From the IMG/VR virus record IMGVR_UViG_3300035122_000002, positions 1 to 38,262 of that record: DNA of 38,262 nucleotides, one strand, 5' to 3'. The position numbers and the translations under genes are program-made. Below the pieces are notes generated by a model. The model did no database searches and was not told the DNA's origin. It worked only from the letters and a program-made list of their open reading frames with translations. The stretch is from a virus. Below, in pieces: positions 35,242 through 36,473 of this stretch; position 1 is the first letter of the stretch, and every line of letters starts with the position of its first letter.

Positions 35242-35785
35242 TAGTTTTTTGAAAAATGTTTTGGGAAGATTGCGCGTGTGGCTTGAGTGGGTAACGCCGA
35301 CGATTCGGCGCTATATTTTTAGAAGGGGGGGGCTCCTCTGAATCCATGTCGATTTCAGGAGTAGTGTTCTCAGGCATCTGCCGTTTCTGCTGATAGTCCT
35401 GCTTCACCTGTGCATCGTAACCGCCATGTGATCCATTGCCTCCATCGTTGTTTGTGCCACTGCGAGAGTCGAGCATCTGCATGTTTTCTACTGTCACAGA
35501 GTGCTTGGAGCGTTTGCCGCCGTTCTGGTCCGTCCACTGTGCAAAGTGAAGGCGTCCCTCGACAAGGATTTTTGATCCCTTGAGGAGATGCTGGTTGGCA
35601 ATCTCTGCAGAGCGCCCGAAGAAGGTGATGTCGATAAAGCAGGTCTCCTCCTTCTTTTCTCCGTTGCTTGTGAATCTCCTGCTTGTCGCGATGGAGGTCT
35701 TTACTATGGCTACCCCGCCCGATGTGTATCGGAGCTCGATGTCTCTGACGCAATTACCAATAAGAATTATTTTGTTATAGCCCAT
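35228..35785 (-). CDS. ssb: single-stranded DNA-binding protein with displaced tip
   Basis: A 185-aa SSB: OB-fold residues 1-108 include KIILIGNCVRDIELRY, EKKEETCFIDITFFGRSAEI, LLKGSKILVEGRLHFAQWTD and KRSKHSVTVENMQMLDS, followed by a Gly/Gln linker. The linker ends PEIDMDSEEPPP and continues 31 residues past an eight-C run (35325-35332). Nine or six Cs would give EEPPPF or EEPPF and a TAA at 35319, the standard acidic tip that binds host partners. AAGGAG precedes the ATG and overlaps the HNH stop. The N-terminus appears supplied by the HNH insertion. Confidence 0.92.
   Translation of the reverse strand: MGYNKIILIGNCVRDIELRYTSGGVAIVKTSIATSRRFTSNGEKKEETCFIDITFFGRSAEIANQHLLKGSKILVEGRLHFAQWTDQNGGKRSKHSVTVENMQMLDSRSGTNNDGGNGSHGGYDAQVKQDYQQKRQMPENTTPEIDMDSEEPPPSKNIAPNRRRYPLKPHAQSSQNIFQKTIDIS
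35295..35310. terminator. hairpin CGCCGA-CGAT-TCGGCG
   Basis: Perfect six-base stem between the corrected ssb stop and the next promoter. On the plus strand it is followed by CTATATTTTT, on the minus strand by no U-run. It may end transcription entering from the left or simply separate units. Confidence 0.35.
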
Positions 35786-35802
35786 TTGTAAACTCCTTGT
35801 AC
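35771..35802. repeat. left copy of HNH-flanking direct repeats
   Basis: Contains TTTGTTATA (35771-35779) and ACTCCTTGTAC (35792-35802), the start and ribosome-site region of the working ssb. The same two strings occur at 36447-36473 on the other side of the HNH gene. They mark a duplicated ssb 5' end. Confidence 0.7.
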
Positions 35803-36368
35803 GTTTCTCTTCTTGTTATTTTCAAAATAGATTGCTTACTGACAGGGTATTCTTTTGATAAGGAGTAGGCACTTTGGCCTTCTTTATTTCTTTTGAAAAT
35901 TTCGACAACAACATCTTTTGAAAGCTTTCTTCTTGCTTTTCCATTATTAGAGCAATGCATCTTCCCTTCTTCACTGCTATTCCATCTAAGCATTTTTTCT
36001 CTTGATATTTTTCTAACATTATCATTCGAATTAGATAGTCCAGTTTCCCAGGCATGAATGCAATTTTCTTTTGGAGTGCACCACTCGAGATTTTCTATCC
36101 TGTTATCGTGCTTTACCCCATTTTTATGGTTAACATGTTTTTTATCTTTATTTTCTCCAAAAAATGTTAGGCACATCAGCCTATGAACTGCATATTTTTT
36201 TTGTTTTCTATTTTTATGCAATGTGACATATTCATAACCTCTGTCTTTTGTTTTTTTAAGCCAATTGCCTTTTAGATATTTGACATATTTATTAGTTTTT
36301 GGATAACTCCATACTTCCCCTTCCCTGGTGACAGCGTATAACCCTTCATAGTTTGGTATATCTATCAT
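35775..36368 (-). CDS. HNH homing endonuclease with NUMOD4-like start
   Basis: A 197-aa protein from MIDIPNYEGLYAVTREGEVW, with AAGGGAG before the ATG. Residues 1-50 match NUMOD4; the HNH core is at about 60-100 (VHRLMCLTFFGENKDKKHVN and HKNGVKHDNRIENLEWC, His78/His81/Asn83). The C-terminus (LSKDVVVEIFKRNKEGQSAY) is a helix-turn-helix-like DNA-binding region. The gene is markedly AT-rich against its neighbours and has its own promoter. It lies between an ssb 5' remnant and the working ssb, and its last codons overlap the new ssb ribosome site. Confidence 0.9.
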   Translation of the reverse strand: MIDIPNYEGLYAVTREGEVWSYPKTNKYVKYLKGNWLKKTKDRGYEYVTLHKNRKQKKYAVHRLMCLTFFGENKDKKHVNHKNGVKHDNRIENLEWCTPKENCIHAWETGLSNSNDNVRKISREKMLRWNSSEEGKMHCSNNGKARRKLSKDVVVEIFKRNKEGQSAYSLSKEYPVSKQSILKITRRETYKEFTNGL

Positions 36369-36387
36369 TAAATCTCCCTTCAATAAC

Positions 36388-36417
36388 ACTATACCATGCT
36401 TCATTACCTAATGTCAA
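36388..36417 (-). promoter_or_regulatory. promoter of the HNH gene
   Basis: TTGACA (36412-36417), 18-base spacer, TATAGT (36388-36393) with TGG before it (extended -10). It lies inside and after the ssb remnant; the remnant stop codon is part of the -35. Confidence 0.7.
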
Positions 36418-36458
36418 TGGTGCGTTAGATTTCCTACCAGGATGACTTTGTTATACAT
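36414..36458 (-). pseudogene. ssb 5' remnant (14 codons)
   Basis: MYNKVILVGNLTHH then TGA, behind AAGGAG. MYNKVILVGNLT is a typical SSB start and matches the working SSB (MGYNKIILIGN) in amino acids but differs in most third codon positions. It is the original ssb start cut by the HNH element. Confidence 0.8.
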
Positions 36459-36473
36459 TTCTACTCCTTGTAC
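36447..36473. repeat. right copy of HNH-flanking direct repeats
   Basis: TTTGTTATA (36447-36455) and ACTCCTTGTAC (36463-36473), the partners of the strings at 35771-35802. Together they bound the inserted HNH segment of about 0.67 kb. Confidence 0.7.

Follow-up and report, generated by a model that had tools for sequence, protein, structure and literature searches.

Described systems closest to the ssb locus

The replacement of one end of a gene by a mobile endonuclease gene is not new in principle, since it is known at the 3' ends of genes in yeast and in fungal mitochondria. In the WHO elements of Torulaspora and Lachancea, a resistance-conferring allele replaces the 3' end of FBA1 and the old end is left as a relic (PMC7282813). 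Mobile open reading frames with foreign gene ends have been described in fungal mitochondria for atp6 of Allomyces and for atp6, atp9, cox2 and nad3 of Glomus (PMC3630166), and introns of Tremella contain a second copy of part of their host gene (PMC7315562). Among phages, the cited extract on T4 describes SegG as the product of a free-standing gene which adjoins and targets gene 32, the phage ssb, in intronless homing, and it places the cuts of SegG-like enzymes hundreds to thousands of bp from the insertion site (PMC2988022, extract). A study of the I-HmuI-like HNH genes of Skunavirus mentions neither ssb nor a restored start (PMC12724721). Our literature search, which took in few subscription papers and preprints so that absence is not proof, turned up no phage element that restores a 5' end.

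The locus described here lies on one environmental contig, a virus record of 38,262 bases which encodes a terminase of the T4 type as well as a phage capsid protein and which, taken as a whole, we call the window. From the comparisons given below we consider it highly probable that a free-standing HNH homing gene is directed at the conserved 5' coding part of ssb and takes along an altered ssb start of its own. By mechanism the element is WHO-like, and by descent it is an HNH_3 homing endonuclease. As in the WHO elements, a homing nuclease lying outside any intron or intein is associated with an essential target of which one end is swapped, and the relic would serve here, as it does there, as the second homology arm. 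The WHO nucleases are LAGLIDADG intein-like proteins acting at 3' ends in yeast nuclei, whereas here the nuclease is of the HNH type, the hosts are phages and the 5' end is affected, and because the 5' end is replaced, a ribosome site and start codon are also supplied, partly within the nuclease gene. An end replacement of the WHO type together with a relic was found in the window, in a pair of phages that includes E. coli phage HC6, and in a Campylobacterota locus (L414). With regard to descent, a LAGLIDADG intein-like nuclease with a zinc finger is absent, Pfam giving NUMOD4 and HNH_3 only for the window protein. The mitochondrial mobile reading frames share with the window an endonuclease reading frame within a coding gene and a foreign, DNA-divergent end which replaces the native one while the relic stays, but theirs are C-terminal ends, LAGLIDADG or GIY-YIG nucleases and mitochondrial genomes, and an HNH_3 nuclease with an N-terminal end does not point to descent from them. 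The Tremella elements are similar in that a homing element brings in and swaps a fragment of the host gene, but they are spliced mitochondrial introns and the window locus has no intron. SegG, so far as the extract goes, is likewise a phage endonuclease gene beside ssb with signals of the essential gene inside the nuclease gene, but it is of the GIY-YIG type and intergenic, and the extract describes neither a split target nor a carried recoded start (PMC2988022).

Organization of the window locus

On the minus strand of the window, the genes follow in the order of an 81-amino acid gene (36706-36461), a relic ssb start (36458-36422), the HNH gene (36368-35775) and the working ssb gene (35785-35228). 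The native ssb ribosome site GTACAAGGAGT is at 36463-36473, and the TAG stop of the upstream gene (36461-36463) sits between this site and the relic ATG. Sequence comparison with Sulfuricurvum identified the relic as the ATG, codons 2 to 12 and the first base of codon 13, an Arg codon; it reads GTACAAGGAGTAGAA-ATG TAT AAC AAA GTC ATC CTG GTA GGA AAT CTA ACG C and encodes the peptide MYNKVILVGNLT. The short reading frame of the relic, MYNKVILVGNLTHH (36458-36414), ends at a TGA within the -35 box TTGACA of a predicted sigma-70-type HNH promoter (36417-36388), composed of TTGACA, a spacer of 18 and TATAGT with an extended TG. The HNH gene encodes 197 amino acids and comprises NUMOD4, HNH_3 and a variable C-terminal region; its frame is readable from an ATG at 36404, and a ribosome site, GAAGGGAG, precedes the ATG at 36368. 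The carried ssb start (35785-35744) consists of an ATG and 13 codons, MGYNKIILIGNCVR, in which native NLTR has become NCVR at the insertion site. It is joined to a native body from 35743 onward, and the resulting hybrid gene, which begins MGYNKIILIGNCVRD / MGYNKIILIGNCVRDIELRY and overlaps the end of the HNH gene by 11 nt including its stop, matches the Pfam SSB family at 1.6e-31. The HNH gene (32.8% G+C) and the new ssb start (31%) are AT-rich beside the ssb body (52.5%) and the whole genome (50.9%). Joining position 36422 to 35743 gives MYNKVILVGNLT(R)DIELRY with the Arg13 codon alone incomplete, and because the relic and body so joined restore the native reading, the mobile unit, made up of the promoter, the HNH gene and the carried ssb start, would extend from about 36421 to 35744 on the minus strand, at the Thr12/Arg13 boundary of ssb.

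The sequence observations in the preliminary description of this DNA all hold, with corrections to how some of them are read. It had placed a complete ssb ribosome site, ATG and 12 codons upstream of an AT-rich HNH gene, all of which are present, and a new ssb ribosome site within the last HNH codons, which lies at 35802-35792 over Tyr-Lys-Glu. Its statement that the working gene restarts with the same peptide in mostly different third bases needs amending: the restart exists, and relic and carried 5' end are identical at 20 of 27 nt across their common codons, but the changes also reach the amino acid level at the inferred target and are not confined to third bases. The promoter that it assigned to the element matches the consensus at 11 of 12 positions and is a prediction; on that consensus match it would allow separate expression of the nuclease. 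Both of the flanking repeats it reported were found, TTTGTTATA within a 27-nt repeat of 74% identity and ACTCCTTGTAC as an exact repeat with copies 671 bp apart, but they were rejected as target-site duplications or insertion footprints since one reflects the shared Tyr-Asn-Lys codons and the other the ribosome site. The second copy of the ribosome-site repeat encodes the Tyr-Lys-Glu near the C-terminus of this type of nuclease, a feature also present in two other loci (L177 and L414). A run of eight C was also observed near the 3' end of the window ssb gene (35325-35332, minus strand). With nine C the SSB protein would finish ...EEPPPF, resembling the canonical SSB tip, and as read it continues SKNIAPNRRR...; the explanation is a sequencing error in the homopolymer or else a genuine frameshift.

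The window nuclease matched HNH_3 (3.4e-13) and NUMOD4 (1.5e-5) above the Pfam cut-offs, with no other Pfam domain, and aligned with I-HmuI (PDB 1u3e) over NUMOD4 and HNH with an E value of 8.5e-11. By domains and sequence it is thus an I-HmuI-like homing endonuclease of the NUMOD4-HNH_3 kind, with predicted cleavage activity. It differs from intron-encoded I-HmuI in being free-standing: the HNH reading frame has its own start and stop, the relic frame ends at its TGA, the downstream ssb gene has its own ATG, and the gene lies outside any group I intron or intein. Nothing in Rfam, whose intron families were covered, matched at the locus, and no splicing is required for ssb because the new start is complete, in agreement with the earlier view that neither an intron nor an intein is involved.

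The relic is the native ssb start

The window ssb gene has relatives in IMG/VR and in some 48 genomes of Campylobacterota, chiefly Sulfuricurvum; these relatives have no interruption and start with M(F/Y)NKVILVGNLTRDIELRY or similar. In the closest group of Sulfuricurvum ssb starts the window relic agrees at 31 of 36 nt, in comparison to 24 to 26 of 36 for the new start, and the relic is on this evidence the native start, which the relatives match in preference to the new one. The comparison with HNH-free relatives, proposed in the preliminary description, gave a single uninterrupted start matching the relic. Two ssb starts lacking an HNH gene, the pattern it had named as evidence against a homing element, were not seen among the relatives, and no empty site with the window's own flanking genes was found.

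A close homologue of the window nuclease, with 42% identity, was present in 1 of 397 Campylobacterota genomes (L414), and it occupies the same Thr/Arg boundary of another ssb gene, in the order of relic MFNKIVLVGHLTR, nuclease and new start MNKVILLGRLVRD / MNKVILLGRLVRDIELRY. Because the relic is the native start of the relatives and another genome has a homologous nuclease between the same two codons, the two-start arrangement is not due to chance. The window-type nuclease is known at ssb from these two cases only, which share ancestry and have diverged. The nuclease gene in L414 (reverse complement of 1433-2101) is frameshifted and this copy may be decaying; the ssb start there lies downstream of a gene that we read from its reading frame as RecT-like. 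A free-standing element which inserts at the ssb start and restores the gene, as first proposed, is supported by the relatives, by L414 and by a second nuclease family.

A second HNH family at ssb and its mobility

The second family, A2, was defined by an alignment grown from Hafnia phage yong1; its members have an N-terminal helix-turn-helix-like region and HNH_3 and are unrelated to the window nuclease. In yong1 the HNH gene starts upon the ssb start and finishes in the new ssb start. All 28 full-length A2 loci from IMG/VR (L048-L075) lie directly upstream of ssb, and a recognisable relic start remains in 25 of them. Some relics are free-standing, such as MARGVNKVI/KS in HC6, MLNKVMLIGH in L019 and MAGSVNKVILIGR in L062, each followed by a stop, and others continue in frame into the nuclease, such as MAGVNKVI... 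in Pasteurella phage Pmp11 and MASRGV... in yong1. The C-terminus of the A2 nuclease gene also serves as the ribosome site or as the ssb start itself. A relic stop inside a TTGAC box was seen in the window, HC6, L019 and L062, with TTGAC at the junction in L063, and was considered as a shared left end of the elements but rejected; the box is frequent and not defining because it is absent from L048-L051, L065 and L414.

The A2 element is carried by E. coli phages HC6 and ZCEC08 and by Klebsiella phages BUCT541 and KlebP_265. Among 151 records with a matching stretch, only a handful carry the element, and the near relatives listed lack it. HC6 and its HNH-free, 98%-identical relative ST1UNAM form an exact filled and empty pair, with identity at 532 of 555 nt in the left flank and 430 of 445 in the ssb body in comparison to 16 of 48 in the carried start; the insertion falls directly after codon 9 (...AAAGTAATT), and the native ssb restarts at the Asn-Asp-Pro codons. 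HC6 and BUCT541 are unrelated (about 40% identity) over most of the upstream gene and 98 to 100% identical across the relic, HNH gene and carried start, and within ssb the identity falls to 82, 71 and 57%. Over the A2 pairs, the HNH genes are 91 to 98% identical, the carried starts agree at 35 to 36 of 36 nt and the ssb bodies are 59 to 85% identical, with upstream DNA at 24 to 42% in five of the six pairs. For L049 and L050 the nuclease identity is 98% and the carried starts agree at 35 of 36 nt, the upstream DNA is unrelated (24%), and the relic alleles are each phage's own. A transfer footprint with co-converted flanks was observed in HC6/BUCT541 and in the pairs L049-L051 and L067-L075, and these comparisons show the A2 nuclease and carried start, as judged from sequence, moving as a unit between phages. 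A megablast search of L012 against E. coli genomes gave no match.

Altered target in the carried starts

The A2 relics that reach the core contain Asn-Lys-Val/Ile/Ala in all nine lineages, and the A2 carried starts have NRV, NRA, NKC, CKV or NLV. None of the 15 carried-start lineages has NKV, which is present in 124 of the 156 uninterrupted ssb genes that belong to the same two types (Fisher P about 6e-10, and 4e-6 and 1e-4 within each ssb type separately), P values which are indicative because the 15 lineages share ancestry and are not fully independent. At the nucleotide level, every core-intact A2 relic but that of L065 contains AAYAARRT, as do 128 of the 156 uninterrupted genes; no A2 carried start contains it. 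The window-type alteration affects the Thr codon beside that nuclease's own insertion site: uninterrupted starts of this group have NLTRD (48) or NLTKD (1), with the viral variants NLSRD and, in Nitratiruptor phages, NIVRD/NIVRE, and the carried starts have NCVRD in the window and RLVRD in L414 in place of native NLTRD. Each type of nuclease is thus associated with a change where it is inserted, which is what protection from cutting would predict. This strong comparative signal supports the view that carried starts confer immunity to their own nuclease; as to the cleavage-resistant start originally proposed, the alteration of the target was found and resistance would follow from it. Some of the changes may reflect divergence of the donor, as NKC and NRV occur in natural ssb alleles lacking the nuclease and Val occurs at the window's site in Nitratiruptor phages. 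The ssb gene of Salmonella phage ST46 (L041) is HNH-free and its core reads NKC, so that it shares the residue change of the HC6 carried start, and this is either a natural allele or a putatively resistant one left after loss of the nuclease.

Such alleles bear on a rival account, in which an HNH gene adjoining a donor ssb gene was imported by ordinary recombination and the new start is just the allele of the donor, not one selected to resist cleavage. The HNH gene and the carried start are both rich in AT, and NKC-like alleles exist naturally where no nuclease is present, for example in ST46, both of which fit a passive hybrid of this kind. We nevertheless regard it as unlikely, since the carried starts of both nuclease families are altered exactly at the inferred target, and nuclease and carried start enter phages of unrelated upstream DNA as a unit and always at the same codons.

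Two further accounts concern the presence of two starts. It is improbable that the relic, instead of being a dead fragment, works as a leader peptide or upstream frame which tunes translation of HNH or ssb: the ribosome site and start codon are retained and the relic often stops just ahead of the HNH promoter or start, but its codons vary where intact copies are conserved (GGC to GTC in BUCT541, and in KlebP_265), its length varies, several lineages have it running in frame into the HNH gene, and a role as homology arm is sufficient for its retention. There is very little likelihood that the ssb 5' end was first duplicated in tandem and an HNH gene landed later between the copies. A peptide and ribosome site common to both copies would be expected from such a duplication, but a two-start relative lacking the HNH gene was not seen and relatives are single-start, the copies have only 20 of 27 nt in common and unlike G+C content, and the A2 relic is each phage's own allele while the carried start is shared.

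Proposed mechanism

Homing with a carried, altered start would connect the insertion, relic, restored start and altered target, and in the A2 family the mobility as a unit, all of which are read from the sequences above. The nuclease would cut an intact ssb gene near codons 5 to 13, and for the HC6 type the cut is predicted close to the AAYAARGT codons, for the window type close to those of CTNACNCGN. The break would then be repaired from the carrier phage, the upstream gene and relic supplying homology on the left and the ssb body on the right, and a footprint of exchange fitting such repair was seen. The recipient would be left with the relic, the HNH gene, a new ribosome site, ATG and first codons, and its own ssb body, an arrangement seen directly. 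The hybrid ssb gene would still encode SSB and, because the carried start differs at the target, would be immune; the sequence changes themselves are observed. Precise loss of the nuclease gene would be hard without loss of ssb because the working ssb start is inside and just after the HNH gene. Rebuilding the start of a gene offers a route by which a nuclease gene can reside within an essential one with no need of a self-splicing intron or an intein, and it accounts for hybrid ssb genes and for misleading ssb starts in phage annotation. The pairs of relic and carried start form a natural map of nuclease target sites which can be tested in E. coli phages, with HC6 against ST1UNAM or Bas77-81.

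Wider occurrence of start replacement

We think it likely that start-swapping homing elements are widespread in phages, with at least two unrelated HNH families having independently entered ssb at its first codons and with one further phage gene or more affected, each with a cleavage-resistant 5' replacement. If so, these elements would be the prokaryotic mirror image of the yeast WHO elements and a source of odd first residues in some phage SSB proteins. The element also connects phage biology with the WHO model that has been proposed for how the yeast HO endonuclease arose. The other gene, an unnamed phage gene, is found in L177 (1444-2348), where a NUMOD4-HNH gene restores its start, the relic MALTERTIIDKYEI being fused to the nuclease and the restored start reading MANLTERTVIDKYEI. 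The wider NUMOD4-HNH family of the window nuclease is not generally tied to restored starts, L177 being the only case among 80 loci; further NUMOD4 matches in Campylobacterota (L422-L426) had no restored start, and an IMG/VR single-protein search with the window HNH protein returned no relatives. In L207 an HNH gene stands ahead of a member of L177's target gene family, with no clear relic.

Several other loci were noted. Salmonella phage 29485, E. coli phage N7 and E. coli phage Dewey (L030-L032) gave no clear case; in Dewey (L032:1980-2757) the HNH gene overlaps a second HNH-annotated gene by 8 nt, and a scan for a duplicated start found none. One IMG/VR contig (L003:1) terminates exactly at the ATG of a related ssb gene, probably by chance or through an assembly break. 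In Providencia phage PSTNGR2lys (L029:1866-2558), a longer HNH gene that begins MASK... shares about 58 nt with the start of ssb (MNQCNFTGRIG...), which is possibly a further variant of the arrangement of nuclease and ssb start.
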